Of a stretch of 64,000 nt of DNA, positions 24,555-36,052 are shown piece after piece. Numbering within the stretch: the first letter of the stretch is position 1; each line of letters begins with the position of its first letter. The DNA comes from an uncultured Caulobacteraceae bacterium (GTDB lineage: Bacteria; Pseudomonadota; Alphaproteobacteria; Caulobacterales; Caulobacteraceae). The notes under the pieces are model-generated. The model worked only from the letters and a program-made list of their open reading frames with translations. It was not told where the DNA came from and searched no databases. The stretch covers positions 1-64,000 of the forward strand of contig CAIQJF010000043.1 of NCBI GenBank assembly GCA_903872075.1, given 5' to 3'. Both the position numbers and the translations under genes were made by a program.

Positions 24555-25193
24555 TTACCAACGCAGCAAGCGCGGACCGGCCAGAGCACCCGCGGCGGCG
24601 GGCAAGAGTATGCCGAGAGTGTACCAAATGGCGACGAACGGCGCGCCGGATTCTGGGCAGTGCAGGCTGTAGATCGCGGCGGCCAGGCCACCGGCGGCCA
24701 GACCCGCAGCCGCCCCTGCGAGCCGCAGACGGACCGGCGCCAGCCCGCGAAGGGCCCAGATCAGCATCAGGCAGACCGGCAAGGACGTCGCGGCGATGTA
24801 GCCGGGGCACACCATGGCCGAGCCGCCCATGACGAGGTGACGCCCACCACCGGGAGCCACATCCAGGAGTTGAATAACGGCGGCCCCGACCAGCGACGCC
24901 AAAGGCAAACCGAGCCACGCCAGCCGCAGACCGACTTTCCCGGCCGGTCGGGACAAGCGTTCGATGCAGAGAAACCCGGCTGTCGCCGCCGCGCCCGTGT
25001 AGGCCAACTTGGCCCAGAACATGCCTGACGATACCGCGCGCGCCATGTCCGGTCGCAGGCCCAGCAGCCACGCGACGCCAATGAACGCGACGGCGCCACC
25101 GGCCGATAGAGCCAGGCCCAGCCGCACAACGACACCGCCGGTGCGGACGGGGCGAAGATCGCTGGAGAGGCGATCGATGAGGTCGTCAGTCAT
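24555..25193 (-). CDS. nrsF: NrsF-type (DUF1109) transmembrane anti-sigma factor
   Basis: A 212-residue membrane protein with a short cytoplasmic N-terminus and about six hydrophobic helices, matching DUF1109/NrsF. It is thought to hold its sigma factor at the inner membrane. Cys129 (MVCPGY) and Cys179 (SLHCPESG) correspond in place to the conserved cysteine pair needed for heavy-metal sensing in Caulobacter NrsF (as I recall, 131 and 181). The gene starts 8 bases inside the end of the sigma factor gene, the usual sigma-anti-sigma coupling. Confidence 0.88.
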   Translation of the reverse strand: MTDDLIDRLSSDLRPVRTGGVVVRLGLALSAGGAVAFIGVAWLLGLRPDMARAVSSGMFWAKLAYTGAAATAGFLCIERLSRPAGKVGLRLAWLGLPLASLVGAAVIQLLDVAPGGGRHLVMGGSAMVCPGYIAATSLPVCLMLIWALRGLAPVRLRLAGAAAGLAAGGLAAAIYSLHCPESGAPFVAIWYTLGILLPAAAGALAGPRLLRW

Positions 25194-25737
25194 CGTTCGC
25201 TCCTGCCCCGAACCGATCCATGAGACCGCGTAGCCCGCGATGAGCCGCCACCTTGACCGCGCCTTCCGACATCCCGAGGCTCGCCGCCGTTTCGGCCACC
25301 GATCTTTCCTCGATCTTCAGACTATGCAGGAGTCGACGGGTTCGCTCCGGCAATTCCGCCAGCACGCGCTCAATATCCCGGCGGGCGTCGACGGCTGCGC
25401 TTTCATCCTCCACACGAAGTTCGCTGGCGGCGTCATCCAGCGGCACGAAGACCCGGCGCCCAGCGCGTCGATAATTGTCAATGAGCTTGTACCGTGCGAT
25501 CGCGTAGACCCATGGCGTCAAAGCCTGAGCCTTGTCGAAGGTTTCGCGGCGTTTGTGGATGGCGATCAATGTCTCCTGCACCAGATCCTCGACGTCGTCC
25601 GGGTCACGCCTCAGACGTCGTTGAAAATAGCCCCCCAGCCTCAGACGCAAATCGCCCAGCATAGCGCGGTAAGCGCGCGCGTCGCCGTCAAGCGCCGCGA
25701 GCATCAGAATCTTGAGGTCCGCCTCAGAGGTCTCCAT
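25186..25737 (-). CDS. sigF: SigF-like ECF sigma factor
   Basis: A 183-residue ECF sigma factor. Region 2 includes DPDDVEDLVQETLIAIHKRRETFD and PWVYAIARYKLIDNYRR; region 4 has the helix-turn-helix VAETAASLGMSEGAVKVAAHRGL. With the overlapping nrsF it matches the Caulobacter SigF-NrsF pair, which responds to chromium and cadmium stress. The ATG at 25737 is preferred to a TTG at 25746. A perfect SigF-type promoter lies just upstream on the same strand, suggesting autoregulation with a very short leader. Confidence 0.88.
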   Translation of the reverse strand: METSEADLKILMLAALDGDARAYRAMLGDLRLRLGGYFQRRLRRDPDDVEDLVQETLIAIHKRRETFDKAQALTPWVYAIARYKLIDNYRRAGRRVFVPLDDAASELRVEDESAAVDARRDIERVLAELPERTRRLLHSLKIEERSVAETAASLGMSEGAVKVAAHRGLRGLMDRFGAGANDD

Positions 25738-25754
25738 GGATCCCAATCAACAGG

Positions 25755-25780
25755 TTCGCGCCATGCCAAGCGAAGGTTAC
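25755..25780 (-). promoter_or_regulatory. SigF-type promoter of sigF-nrsF
   Basis: On the minus strand GTAACC, 16 bases, CGAA: an exact match to the SigF promoter described for Caulobacter. The -10 lies 18 bases before the sigF ATG. Confidence 0.75.
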
Positions 25781-25840
25781 AGCAAACACGAGTCAGCCCA
25801 CCTCGCACTAAGATTTTTTGGTCCGGCGACAGGACGCGAT

Positions 25841-25866
25841 GTAACCTCCATGCCATGGTTGCCGGA
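25841..25866 (+). promoter_or_regulatory. SigF-type promoter of the cytochrome b-molybdoenzyme operon
   Basis: On the plus strand GTAACC, 16 bases, CGGA: one mismatch from CGAA in the -10. It faces the cytochrome b gene, with about 85 bases of leader, and is back to back with the sigF promoter. Confidence 0.65.
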
Positions 25867-25925
25867 CTGACGGTGAGCGCCCCCGACGCCGATCCTGGCA
25901 TGGCGAGGCGCAGGGGAGAGTCCTG

Positions 25926-25961
25926 ATGACGCACGCGACCTTGAAGCAGGCGGCCAGATGA
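25926..25961 (+). CDS. possible 11-codon leader ORF
   Basis: ATG plus ten codons (MTHATLKQAAR) ending in TGA, with GGGGAGAG upstream at proper distance. Its stop overlaps the cytochrome b start as ATGA. It could couple translation to the cytochrome gene or be chance. No attenuator hairpin is obvious. Confidence 0.3.
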   Translation: MTHATLKQAAR

Positions 25962-26815
25962 CCGCGACAGCTGACGCACCTGCGGCCGCTGATGGCGCGG
26001 CGCGACGTCCGCCCCGGCGAGAGGTCATCTATCGCCATACGGTGCTTGTGCGGCTGACGCACTGGCTGAACGTTCTGGCCATCGTGGTGATGCTCGGCAG
26101 CGGCCTGAACATCTTCAACGCTCACCCCCACCTGTACTGGGGCCAGAAAGGCAGTGAACTCGACCGGCCATTCCTGTCGATTGACGCTGTCGAAGCGGCA
26201 AGCGGACCGCGTGGCGTCACGACGGTCGCTGGCGCCAAGTTCGATACGACCGGTTTTCTCGGCGTCGCCGTGGACAAGGGCCAGACCCTCCAGAAAGCCT
26301 GGCCGTCGTGGATGACTATCCCGAGCTATCAGGACCTGGCGAATGCCCGTCATTGGCATTTCCTATTTGCCTGGGTTCTGGCGGTTAACGGCGCGGCCTA
26401 TCTCATCTGGGGCGTGGTCAGCCGCCACCTGAAACGAGACATCTGGCCAACCGGTCGCGATCTCGCCAGCCTGCCGCAATCGATCCTGGACCATATCCGC
26501 CTGCGCCATCCGACCGGCGAGGCCGCGAAGCGCTACAACATCCTTCAGCGTCTCGCCTATCTCGGCGTCATCATCTTGATCAGTCTGATGGTGCTCACGG
26601 GCCTCACCATGTCTCCGGGATTCGACGCCTTTGCGCCCTGGTTGCTTGATCTGTTCGGCGGCAGGCAGTCTGCCCGGTCGATCCACTTCCTGTGCGCCTC
26701 AGGCATCGTCGCCTTCGTCACCGTTCACCTGATTGAGGTGGTTCTCGCCGGACCGATCAACGAAGTGATGAGCATGATCACTGGCCGCTACGCCGTCCCC
26801 CCCGACCATTCCTGA
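25958..26815 (+). CDS. membrane cytochrome b561-type subunit
   Basis: A 285-residue integral membrane protein of the cytochrome b/b6 (b561, Ni-hydrogenase-type) superfamily. The hydrophobic segments carry candidate haem ligands: YRHTVLVRLTHWLNVL (His27, His35), ARHWHFLFAW, and SIHFLCASGIVAFVTVHLIEV. Between the first two helices is a periplasmic loop of about 70 residues. It probably exchanges electrons between quinone and the periplasmic molybdoenzyme encoded 15 bases downstream. Both genes lie behind the SigF-type promoter. Confidence 0.87.
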   Translation: MTATADAPAAADGAARRPPRREVIYRHTVLVRLTHWLNVLAIVVMLGSGLNIFNAHPHLYWGQKGSELDRPFLSIDAVEAASGPRGVTTVAGAKFDTTGFLGVAVDKGQTLQKAWPSWMTIPSYQDLANARHWHFLFAWVLAVNGAAYLIWGVVSRHLKRDIWPTGRDLASLPQSILDHIRLRHPTGEAAKRYNILQRLAYLGVIILISLMVLTGLTMSPGFDAFAPWLLDLFGGRQSARSIHFLCASGIVAFVTVHLIEVVLAGPINEVMSMITGRYAVPPDHS

Positions 26816-26829
26816 GTGGAAAGAGCGTC

Positions 26830-27633
26830 ATGACCCTCATCACGCGCCGCAACGCGCTCATCACCGCCGCCACCGGCTCCGGCCTGCTGCTGGCGGGCTG
26901 CACAAAGGTGCGCTTCGGCGACACCCTGACCGGCAGCGCCGGCTTCCAACGCGTGCTCGCCCAGGCCGAGGCCTGGACGCTCTCCAGCCAACGCTTCCTG
27001 CTGTCCGGCGGGGCCATGGCGCGCGAATACAGCGTCGCCGACATCTCCCCAAAGTTTAAAGCCAACGGCACGCTCTATCCGTCCGGCGAGGACTATGAGG
27101 ATGCGGTCAACGAGGAATTCGCCAGGTGGCGTCTGACCATCGACGGAATGGTCTCTCATCCCTTGAGCCTGTCCGTGGCGGAGATCCGTAGCCTGCCGGC
27201 TCGCACCCAGATCACGCGCCACGACTGCGTCGAGGGCTGGAGCGCCATTGGCCAGTGGACCGGGGTGCCGCTGGGCCTGTTGTTGAAGACCGCCGGGGTG
27301 TTACCGCAGGCGAAATACGCCGTCTTTCATTGCGCCGACAATCTTGAGGGCGAGCCGGAAAAGGGTGGCATGCAGGCGCCCGGCCAATACTACGAGAGCA
27401 TAGCCGTCGTGGACGCTCTCCACCCCCAGACCCTCATCGCCCACAGCATGAACGGCAAGCCGCTGGACGTCGGCCACGGCGCGCCGCTTCGCCTGAGGGT
27501 CGAACGTCAACTCGGCTACAAACAGGCCAAGTACGTGCAGCGCATTCAACTCACCGATCGTTTGTCGGGCCTCTACGGCGGAAAGGGCGGCTACTGGGAA
27601 GACCGCGGCTATGAGTGGTACGCGGGCATCTGA
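26830..27633 (+). CDS. molybdopterin-dependent oxidoreductase (sulfite oxidase-like), exported
   Basis: This 267-residue protein has the sulfite-oxidase/MsrP-like molybdopterin fold. Cys133 in HDCVEGWS is the expected molybdenum ligand, followed by QWTGVPLGLLL and a late HGAPLRLRVERQLGYKQAK. The N-terminus has a twin-arginine motif (TRRNAL) and a lipobox ending at Cys24 (LLAGC), so it is probably a Tat-exported lipoprotein. Its redox partner is the cytochrome b gene upstream. The substrate (sulfite, methionine sulfoxide or another oxide) is not decided by sequence. Confidence 0.88.
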   Translation: MTLITRRNALITAATGSGLLLAGCTKVRFGDTLTGSAGFQRVLAQAEAWTLSSQRFLLSGGAMAREYSVADISPKFKANGTLYPSGEDYEDAVNEEFARWRLTIDGMVSHPLSLSVAEIRSLPARTQITRHDCVEGWSAIGQWTGVPLGLLLKTAGVLPQAKYAVFHCADNLEGEPEKGGMQAPGQYYESIAVVDALHPQTLIAHSMNGKPLDVGHGAPLRLRVERQLGYKQAKYVQRIQLTDRLSGLYGGKGGYWEDRGYEWYAGI

Positions 27634-30928: not shown

Positions 30929-31237
30929 TCAATGTTTGGCGGGAGCCATTCCGCCGGCGGACATGCCGCCCGTGGACATCGCGCCGGACGTCATGGCGTC
31001 CTTCTTATGGGCCTTGGCCATGGGTTTCTTGGCTGTGGTCTTGTGGGTAGCCATCTTGTCGCCGGTCGCCATGGCGCCGGTGGACATATGGTCGCCAGAC
31101 GACATCGCGCCGGTCGACATGCCTCCGGTGGACATGTGGTCGCCCGAGGCCATCGCCCCTGTCGTCTGGGCGGGCGCGGCGCCGGCGAACAGGACGCAGG
31201 AAAGGAGAGCGGCGATCGCGGTGGTGGTCTTGATCAT
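30929..31237 (-). CDS. secreted Met-rich short-repeat protein (MXKDX-like)
   Basis: A 102-residue protein with a clear signal peptide (cleavage after APAQ). The mature part is almost entirely degenerate five- to seven-residue repeats such as HMSTGGMSTGAMSSGD and AMTSGAMSTGGMSAGG, with a Lys/Ala stretch in the middle. About every fifth to seventh residue is Met, with scattered His and Asp. This resembles the pentapeptide MXKDX repeat proteins, whose role is unknown; Met/His richness could suit soft-metal binding in the periplasm. The DUF1223 gene lies 110 bases upstream on the same strand. Confidence 0.75.
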   Translation of the reverse strand: MIKTTTAIAALLSCVLFAGAAPAQTTGAMASGDHMSTGGMSTGAMSSGDHMSTGAMATGDKMATHKTTAKKPMAKAHKKDAMTSGAMSTGGMSAGGMAPAKH

Positions 31238-31347: not shown

Positions 31348-32034
31348 TCAGACTCGGGCGGCGGCGAGAATCGGACCGCCACGACCGGTCTGGACCAGGA
31401 TCGCGGTCTTGAGGCGCCCCTCGGAGGCAGGCGGAAGAGCGTAGGCTTGAGCCGCGCCGGTCCAAGAGCCCAACAACGTCAGTGAGCGGACGACATTCTT
31501 GTGCGGCAGCGTACGCCCGCCGTTTTCACCTCGGCCGATGGGCACCTGAACGATGTCGGGATCATAACGGACCAGCCAAACCTCGGCAGGATGAGACGGC
31601 GCCGAACCGGTGATCGTCACGCGGTCGCCGCGAAGGGAAATGACGGGGCCGGCGACCCCGCGATCGGCGCCAGCCAAGGCCCGCTCGATCTCTCCGTCGC
31701 GCACCCCGACCACATCCGTGCGGCCATTGATCACGACCTGTGGCGTCCAGACATCGCTGTGACGCAGGGCGCGGGCGTAGTCCCATTGCCGGGCGGAATT
31801 GCGCGGAGAACCGAACGTGTCCTTCCAGCCCAGTTGATCCCAGTAGGTCACCTGGAAACTGAGCGCGAGAATATCCGGCCGCCCACTCAAGGCGATGACA
31901 TGGGCGTTGGCCGGCGGACAGGACGAGCAGCCCTGGCTCTGGAACAGCTCGATCACGGTCGGATGTGCAGCGTCTGCAGCGACGGCGGATCCGGCGAGCG
32001 ATAGTGTCACGGCGGCGAGAACAGCGCGGATCAT
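31348..32034 (-). CDS. DUF1223 protein, secreted thioredoxin-like fold
   Basis: A 228-residue exported protein (signal peptide cleaved after AVAA) of the DUF1223 family. VIELFQSQGCSSCPPANAHV gives a thioredoxin-like first strand and a redox CxxC (Cys36, Cys39). YWDQLGWKDTFGSP and TPQVVINGRTDVVG are further family landmarks. It is probably a periplasmic thiol-disulfide protein, but no activity has been assigned to the family. It is upstream of the Met-rich gene. Confidence 0.88.
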   Translation of the reverse strand: MIRAVLAAVTLSLAGSAVAADAAHPTVIELFQSQGCSSCPPANAHVIALSGRPDILALSFQVTYWDQLGWKDTFGSPRNSARQWDYARALRHSDVWTPQVVINGRTDVVGVRDGEIERALAGADRGVAGPVISLRGDRVTITGSAPSHPAEVWLVRYDPDIVQVPIGRGENGGRTLPHKNVVRSLTLLGSWTGAAQAYALPPASEGRLKTAILVQTGRGGPILAAARV

Positions 32035-32139
32035 GAAGCCTCTCCCTCGACCGCGCCACGTGCGCCGGTCGAGGGGCTATCCGCTCAAGGCCCGGCGACG
32101 GTTACAACGGGGCCAGGAATTTGTTGAGGCGGCGGTCCC

Positions 32140-32544
32140 CTAGCCCGGCAATCGTTCGAAGCAGGGGATGCCTTCCGGAATCCGATGGAACGACTGTTTG
32201 TCGACCGTGTAGATTGCGATGTCGGGCCCACCGTACTGGCTGGGATCGTCCAGCGCGCCAATCTTGACGATCACCGCCGGGAAGCCCTGAGGGCGGGTGA
32301 CCAGATGGGTCCCGCAGTTGGGGCAGAACTCCCGGGTCACCGGCCGTTCAAGGTCCGACCGCGCGAAGCCCTTAGGCTCGCCCTTTGTGTAGGCGAAACC
32401 AGGAATCGGCATGGCGATGAAGACATTGGGCGAGCCGCCCGTCAGGTACTGGCACTCCCGGCAATGGCACTGCGCCTTCATCATCGGATCGCCCTCGGCG
32501 ACGAAGCGCACCGCCCCACAATAGCATCCGCCTTCAAGCTTCAT
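32140..32544 (-). CDS. GFA family protein
   Basis: A 134-residue protein of the glutathione-dependent formaldehyde-activating (Gfa/CENP-V) fold. Zinc-binding cysteines are visible in [16 protein letters not shown] and FCPNCGTHL. Most members are small zinc proteins of unproven activity; a true S-hydroxymethylglutathione synthase role should not be assumed. It diverges from uvrB. Confidence 0.9.
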
Positions 32545-35455: not shown

Positions 35456-35527
35456 GCGTCCCGCGCCGTTGTGCGGAAAACACGCGCTCTGACGGGGGCG
35501 TCAAATTGGGATTTCACGGCTCGCCAC

Positions 35528-36052
35528 GTGGACGACAGCGCTGACGACCCGTTGATGGCCGCCTATCTGGAGCGGCGCGAGGAGCTGATCCGCTATTTCA
35601 GGGCGCGCCTGCGCTCACCCGAGGCGGCTCAGGACATCGTGCAGGACATCTATCTGAAGATCGCCCGTCGGCCGGCGGAAGAGATCACGAATCCGGCCGC
35701 CTACCTCTACAGGCTCGGCTCCAACCTCATGTTGGATCACATCAAGCGCGAGCGCCGTGTGCAACGGCGTGCGTCCGCCTGGCGCGAGGCGACCGTCGAC
35801 ACCGAGAGCGGCATACAGTTCGCCGATGAGGATCCCGCAGCCGACAGGACTGTTGCGGCCCGGGAGCGGCTTCGGCTGATTATAGAAACAGTCAACGAGA
35901 TGCCCCCTGCGGTTCGGGAAGCCTTCAGGCTGCACAAACTCGAGGGCCTCAGCCACGCCGAAACGGCCGCAGCCATGGGCGTATCGCGCTCAAGCGTCGA
36001 GAAATACATCATGGCCAGCCTTCAACGCATCGTGAAGAAGGTCGGACGATGA
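35528..36052 (+). CDS. FecI-type ECF sigma factor
   Basis: This ECF sigma factor of about 174 residues has region 2 (SPEAAQDIVQDIYLKIARR, PAAYLYRLGSNLMLDHIKRE) and region 4 (HAETAAAMGVSRSSVEKYIMASLQRI), as in iron-starvation FecI sigma factors. The start is unclear: GTG at 35528 (VDDSADDP) fits relatives, while GTG at 35471 would add 19 residues. With the FecR-like gene and STN-containing TonB receptor downstream it forms a cell-surface signalling cassette. The sigma factor should drive the receptor gene when ligand is bound. Confidence 0.9.
   Translation: MDDSADDPLMAAYLERREELIRYFRARLRSPEAAQDIVQDIYLKIARRPAEEITNPAAYLYRLGSNLMLDHIKRERRVQRRASAWREATVDTESGIQFADEDPAADRTVAARERLRLIIETVNEMPPAVREAFRLHKLEGLSHAETAAAMGVSRSSVEKYIMASLQRIVKKVGR

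Follow-up and report, generated by a model that had tools for sequence, protein, structure and literature searches.

The stretch of DNA analyzed here (the window) covers the first 64,000 nucleotides of contig CAIQJF010000043.1, which belongs to the genome of an uncultured Caulobacteraceae bacterium (GCA_903872075.1; G000 hereafter). An ECF sigma factor gene (sigF) and the adjacent anti-sigma gene nrsF are divergent from a gene pair that encodes a cytochrome b and a molybdoenzyme, and a separate unit further along encodes a DUF1223 protein and a methionine-rich peptide (Table 1). The sigma factor has regions 2 and 4, the neighboring NrsF has Cys129 and Cys179, and the associated sites are of the GTAACC-N15/16-CGAA type, all of which are features of ECF16 membership. 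Both cysteines are conserved in all 22 NrsF sequences aligned, a set of closer relatives picked by tblastn. Against AntiSigF_NrsF, a narrower equivalog model of NCBIfam, the window NrsF reaches 157.7 bits, short of the cut-off of 300. In SigF/NrsF systems, the anti-sigma factor is described as having six transmembrane helices (PMC3511200, PMC8315932). A second ECF-type sigma gene is located about 10 kb from sigF (35471-36052, plus strand; 29% identity over part of its length). Just past nrsF and near the molybdoenzyme gene, the plus-strand segment 21544-24551 contains genes for a molybdate-binding ModA (TIGR01256) and a TonB-dependent receptor; the window scan found no exact SigF site before either gene.

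Table 1. Genes and predicted SigF-type promoters of the window.
Feature	Position	Strand	Sequence or supporting match
nrsF, NrsF-family anti-sigma factor	24555..25193	-	PF06532 (DUF1109), E 1.6e-63, above cut-off
sigF, ECF sigma factor, 183 aa from ATG	25186..25737	-	Sigma70_r2 and Sigma70_r4_2 matches
Predicted SigF-type promoter of sigF-nrsF	25755..25780	-	GTAACC-TTCGCTTGGCATGGCG-CGAA; -35 GTAACC 25775-25780; -10 CGAA 25755-25758
Predicted SigF-type promoter of cytochrome b-molybdoenzyme operon	25841..25866	+	GTAACC-TCCATGCCATGGTTGC-CGGA; -35 GTAACC 25841-25846; -10 CGGA 25863-25866
b561-type cytochrome b (Ni_hydr_CYTB)	25958..26815	+	PF01292, E 1.4e-23, sole Pfam match
MsrP/YedY-like molybdoenzyme, lipoprotein-like N-terminus	26830..27633	+	PF00174 (Oxidored_molyb), E 1e-34
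Met-rich peptide, MrpX/MXKDX-like, 102 aa, 13 Met, secreted-looking	30929..31237	-	TIGR02953, E 5e-7
DUF1223 protein, signal-like N-terminus, thioredoxin-like fold	31348..32034	-	PF06764, E 1.2e-56
Third predicted SigF-type promoter, before DUF1223	32080..32105	-	exact GTAACC-N16-CGGA; absent from the preliminary description

A preliminary description of this DNA placed two divergent SigF-type promoters in the gap between sigF and the cytochrome b gene. Both sites are found exactly at those positions and on those strands, each with a spacer of 16 bases, and they agree, as had been proposed, with the Caulobacter crescentus SigF site, given as GTAACC-N16-CGAA in PMC3511200. The consensus proposed for ECF group 16 is tGTAACc-N16-CGAA (quoted in PMC3420878). 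At two of the three window sites, those of the cytochrome b and DUF1223 genes, the -10 element is CGGA and not CGAA. Dinucleotide shuffling of the 220-bp gap (100,000 replicates) produced one or more strict sites in 24 cases and a site on each strand in none. For the window as a whole, three exact GTAACC-N16-CGRA sites were found, compared with a mean of 0.14 in shuffled sequences and no shuffle of 100 with three or more. Furthermore, both sites are retained in a gap alignment with L043 and L046, two close relatives whose genes are arranged in the same way.

A genome-wide search for GTAACC-N16-CGAA had been suggested as a check. The exact pattern is only modestly enriched in G000 (13 sites versus six for the reversed control). 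When one mismatch is allowed, the motif (312 sites) is less frequent than its control (390 sites). In whole-genome counts that include 60 relatives, the numbers are mostly small and often do not exceed those of the control; G000 has six versus one in that comparison. Because the control equals or exceeds many of these counts, whole-genome enrichment was rejected as uninformative, and the evidence used here is the position and conservation of the sites. The modest excess in G000, together with the location of seven of the 13 exact sites within ORFs of at least 335 aa (one of which, in L006, was compared with Pfam), speaks for chance or non-functional matches. This explanation is highly improbable, given that no gap shuffle produced the pair and that the sites persist in the L043 and L046 gaps and across 57 loci. 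One further exact site, near gltX, lies within a competence ORF of the opposite strand and is not claimed as a promoter.

With the transcript start placed 6 nt after the -10 element, as at the mapped start of Bradyrhizobium japonicum ecfF (PMC3420878), transcription would begin near 25749 (minus strand) for sigF and near 25872 (plus strand) for the cytochrome b operon. The sigF leader would then be about 12 nt to the ATG at 25737, in line with the dozen bases predicted before. An in-frame TTG at 25746 is an alternative sigF start that would make this leader even shorter. The same placement predicts leaders of about 86 nt for the cytochrome b gene and about 40 nt for the DUF1223 gene, whose transcript would begin near 32074 (minus strand). 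The plus strand of the cytochrome b leader contains tandem micro-ORFs of 8 codons (25900-25926) and 11 codons (25926-25961). These overlap one another (TGATG), and the second, which has GGGGAG ahead of it, also overlaps the cytochrome b ATG (ATGA). The corresponding leader in L046 is far shorter, with 34 nt from the -10 element to the ATG.

For comparison of sigF promoters, 57 sigF loci with linked nrsF were collected: that of the window, 27 in relatives, and 29 in named genomes. In 49 of these loci, a relaxed site precedes sigF on its own strand at a distance of up to about 260 bp; the eight loci that lack it count against the regulon reading given below. The spacer has 15 bases in 25 loci and 16 bases in 24, and the reversed control gave none at either length. 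The exact 16-base spacer emphasized in the preliminary description therefore holds for both sites of the gap and is not strict before sigF in general. On the opposite strand of the same upstream stretch, N16 sites occur in 34 and N15 sites in seven of the 57 loci. These patterns support the assignment of the two sites in the gap as putative promoters for SigF, the adjacent ECF sigma factor. Autoregulation of sigF, as had been predicted, is likely, and it may be weak.

Accounts of related systems differ on this point. Autoregulation is described for Brucella bcrS (PMC8315932), B. japonicum ecfF (PMC3420878), and, under overexpression, Sinorhizobium meliloti rpoE7, whereas the authors of the C. 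crescentus study lean to sigF not being strongly autoregulated (PMC3511200). If their proposal also applied here, the cytochrome b-molybdoenzyme operon would be a genuine SigF target and sigF itself would be transcribed mostly from a constitutive promoter with weak autoregulation. This possibility deserves consideration but is the less probable one, because a simple scan of the gap found no sigma-70-like match, the site upstream of sigF is conserved as described above, the ecfF transcript of B. japonicum is reported only after H2O2 (PMC3420878), and bcrS is among the autoregulated genes. A different arrangement is seen in L041 (9504-9707, plus strand), where nrsF follows a SigF-type site directly and no sigF match intervenes; another sigF-nrsF pair of the same genome (G025) is located at L068.

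The cytochrome b is the probable membrane electron donor to the molybdoenzyme. The two genes are on the same strand and within 300 bp of each other in all 80 named loci compared, which are the best 80 of at least 583 and include many from Rhizobium and its relatives. No solved structure matched the cytochrome b at E 0.1. For the molybdoenzyme profile, the best match among solved structures is 1xdq (Bacterial Sulfite Oxidase; E 6.7e-22), which we take to be E. coli YedY/MsrP. Cys133 (RHDCVEGW) is invariant in an alignment of five sequences, in a stretch that aligns to CVEAWS of 1xdq, and is presumably the Mo ligand. MsrP scores best against this profile and SoxC, SorA, and SorT score lower, all of them below cut-off. 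Since the score against the NCBIfam MsrP equivalog model (98 of 207 bits) misses its cut-off, the enzyme is referred to as MsrP-like and is not filed as MsrP. Its partner differs from the YedZ-type haem partner MsrQ, as the only Pfam match is PF01292 and the protein is of the b561 type; MsrQ presumably belongs to another Pfam family.

Among 60 genomes, a relaxed site is present upstream of this operon in 16 of the 28 assessable homologous loci, the window included, and the reversed control has none in 28. L270 was left out of this count because of too little upstream DNA, and L269 has only 1038 bp upstream. The sites occur in 14 of 23 loci in genomes with NrsF and in two of five in genomes without detected NrsF, a difference that is not significant (p 0.62), and the nine loci without a site in NrsF genomes count against the regulon reading. 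The genomes compared include G013 from the genus and G026 from the family of the window. In G026, a single contig carries both sigF-nrsF and the operon, some 680 kb apart, and the operon has the site. In the drafts G002, G003, G007, G010, G011, and G027, the operon is on a different contig from sigF-nrsF, and the site is present in all. Retention of the site at operons away from sigF, which a shared gap alone would not explain, supports the earlier proposal that the molybdoenzyme is under direct SigF control.

The DUF1223 protein has a CSSC motif that is invariant in all nine sequences aligned, and it matches the structure 2axo both in sequence (E 1.2e-45) and in fold; this structure is classed as thioredoxin-like (PMC3091736). 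The Met-rich peptide gene starts 110 bp after the DUF1223 gene, and site 32080-32105 is ahead of the unit that they form. Between the two genes, neither an exact SigF site nor a sigma-70-like match was found, and they are likely co-transcribed, judging from this arrangement. One terminator-like hairpin was found on the minus strand within the DUF1223 gene. A gene of the GFA family (32140-32544, minus strand) ends 34 bp before the third SigF-type site, and read-through from it into DUF1223 is possible.

The Met-rich peptide has the context of MrpX/MXKDX peptides, being short, rich in methionine, secreted-looking (with an N-terminus that is signal-like by a crude hydropathy rule), and encoded close to an Msr operon in a unit that has a SigF-type site ahead of it. 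Its TIGR02953 score of 29.6 bits is below the curated cut-off of 41 bits; among three relatives, L050 exceeds this value (48.6) and L046 (33.1) and L048 (36.7) are below it. A Met-rich ORF also follows DUF1223 in L046, L048, L050, and L052. In addition, relatives have SigF-type sites before DUF1223. A site within 400 bp of this gene was found in seven of 19 genomes with NrsF versus none of 11 without it (p 0.03), a weak contrast based on the best-scoring gene per genome (one paralogue each, 30 genomes).

Two of the 13 exact sites in G000 lie outside the window and precede MsrA genes. One is located on another contig and is intergenic, 40 bp ahead of an MsrA gene with a signal-like N-terminus. 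The other (G000:C43:89998-90023, minus strand) is 101 bp before an MsrA gene of the non-exported, cytosolic type. It falls within the 3' end of a TPR gene and is the only site among the 20 non-exported MsrA loci, and is therefore treated as doubtful. The MsrA set comprises 40 loci, eight from four other genomes and 32 from the genus of the window, where a 33rd match, a contig-edge fragment in G008, was left out. They were divided into exported and non-exported types by eye from their N-termini, and L220, which is too near a contig start to be assessed, was then set aside. A relaxed site (spacer of 15-17 bases, CG[AGT]A) precedes 14 of 19 assessable exported MsrA genes versus one of 20 non-exported ones (Fisher p 1e-5), and the reversed control is found at one of 40. 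By kinship, the exported MsrA genes with a site are 13 of 15 in the genus of the window and one of four outside. The gene divergent from sigF is the exported MsrA gene itself in G003 and G005, and the same probably holds for G014, which has an nrsF fragment on the far side.

Relatives have these genes in single arrays. The order in L048 is site, DUF1223, Met-rich gene, cytochrome b, molybdoenzyme, site, sigF, and nrsF, all on one strand, and L117 has the same order with a single site, ahead of DUF1223. In Rhizobium loci such as L101 of Rhizobium johnstonii 3841, nrsF-sigF is divergent from a unit of site, Met-rich gene, cytochrome b, and molybdoenzyme, without DUF1223. In the 80 named loci, a Met-rich ORF lies no more than 700 bp from these genes in 25 of the 29 where sigF and nrsF are linked, compared with nine of the 51 without such a pair (Fisher p 2e-9), counts in which the filter retains clear false matches (L116 and a plus-strand ORF of L048). 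The genomes and loci compared throughout are related, such that the p-values overstate their independence.

Taken together, the conserved sites and the content and linkage of the genes very probably reflect a SigF/NrsF regulon of the ECF16 type, directed at methionine oxidation in the periplasm by HOCl and similar oxidants. Published homologues are the source for SigF dependence, transcript starts, sensing by NrsF, sulfoxide reduction, and scavenging in the mechanism proposed. By analogy with OsrA and AbcS, HOCl, peroxide, or similar oxidants on the outer side of the inner membrane would act on Cys179, inactivating NrsF and freeing SigF. The free sigma factor would transcribe its own sigF-nrsF operon, as well as the genes for the cytochrome b and the MsrP-like molybdoenzyme, which may reduce methionine sulfoxide with membrane electrons. 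It would also direct expression of the DUF1223 thioredoxin-fold protein with the secreted, sacrificial Met-rich peptide, and of the exported MsrA, whose gene lies on a different contig of G000. The peptide may soak up oxidant, and the two reductases would regenerate methionine. Two reports on homologous systems count against this reading: S. meliloti RpoE7 fusions gave no response to H2O2, Cd, or chromate, and two C. crescentus msrA homologues were unchanged in the microarrays described in PMC3511200.

A SigF-dependent regulon could also serve metal (Cr, Cd, or Cu) or sulfite stress, with the molybdoenzyme acting as a sulfite oxidase. The C. crescentus system provides precedents for both parts, as dichromate and cadmium trigger a SigF response in that species and the YedY-like target there carries the name of a sulfite oxidase subunit (PMC3511200). 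This alternative appears unlikely for the window, where the Met-rich peptide and the exported MsrA are probable co-targets and the molybdoenzyme profile favors MsrP over SoxC, SorA, and SorT, all below cut-off. Moreover, no PF05114 (DUF692) gene like the targets in C. crescentus was found in the genome, which is 93% complete. Under the preferred reading of periplasmic methionine oxidation, the genes for cytochrome b561, the molybdoenzyme, DUF1223, the Met-rich peptide, and exported MsrA, which are usually annotated apart, form one predicted stress regulon that is present in several alphaproteobacterial groups.

This kind of system is already known from Azospira and Brucella; the DUF1223 protein, the exported MsrA target, and the b561-type partner are its less-described components. 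The closest match is BcrS/AbcS-bcrXQP of Brucella melitensis, which has an ECF16 sigma factor with an NrsF-family anti-sigma factor and, as in the window, a divergent pair of promoters with N16 spacers, in Brucella GTAACC-N16-CGAA (spacers counted from Table 1 of PMC8315932). Its transcript starts were located by 5'-RACE, it is induced by HOCl, and the target operon encodes a Met-rich MXKDX peptide and MsrQP-like proteins (PMC8315932). Unlike in Brucella, the Met-rich peptide of the window is encoded in the separate DUF1223 unit, about 3.3 kb past the molybdoenzyme gene, and an exported MsrA also has a site. The partner cytochrome in the window is of the b561 type (PF01292), and this comparison covers genes other than the type of BcrQ. 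In Azospira suillum, SigF/NrsF likewise controls a methionine-rich scavenger (MrpX) and a YedY-type methionine sulfoxide reductase (YedY1/YedZ1); the likeness is by description and not by sequence, and DUF1223 and exported MsrA are unmentioned in the descriptions cited (PMC4623255, PMC5748585).

The C. crescentus SigF/NrsF system, the source of the consensus, has a sigF promoter of the same type and a YedY-type molybdoenzyme target, CC2748, whose induction is only partly SigF-dependent (PMC3511200). It differs in its main targets, which are operons with DUF2282, DUF692, DUF2063, and DoxX genes (PMC3511200). EcfF/OsrA of B. japonicum uses the same promoter type, with a consensus that differs in detail, GTAAC(g,a)-N14-15-(c,t)CG(t,a), and Cys129 and Cys179 of OsrA, which have the same positions in the window NrsF, were tested and matter for its function (PMC3420878). 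The EcfF regulon contains three MetSO reductases, one of which is predicted to be periplasmic, and the passages cited name no Met-rich peptide or molybdoenzyme in it (PMC3420878).

More tentatively, the peptide and two unrelated repair enzymes, the quinol-fed MsrP-like enzyme and the exported MsrA, may form a closed periplasmic methionine redox cycle under SigF. In it, DUF1223 with its thioredoxin fold would be the dedicated electron carrier for recycling of MsrA or the peptide. This possibility is a concrete hypothesis for DUF1223 and, if true, would give this widespread family a function. A search of full-text literature, a scope that leaves most subscription papers outside, found no report that pairs DUF1223 with 'sigma factor' and two that mention DUF1223, one of which assigns the fold (PMC3091736). 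In G024, a genome without detected NrsF, a DUF1223 gene is located immediately ahead of a co-oriented MsrA gene (G024:C1:104275-105452), an adjacency that hints that the pair may work together.
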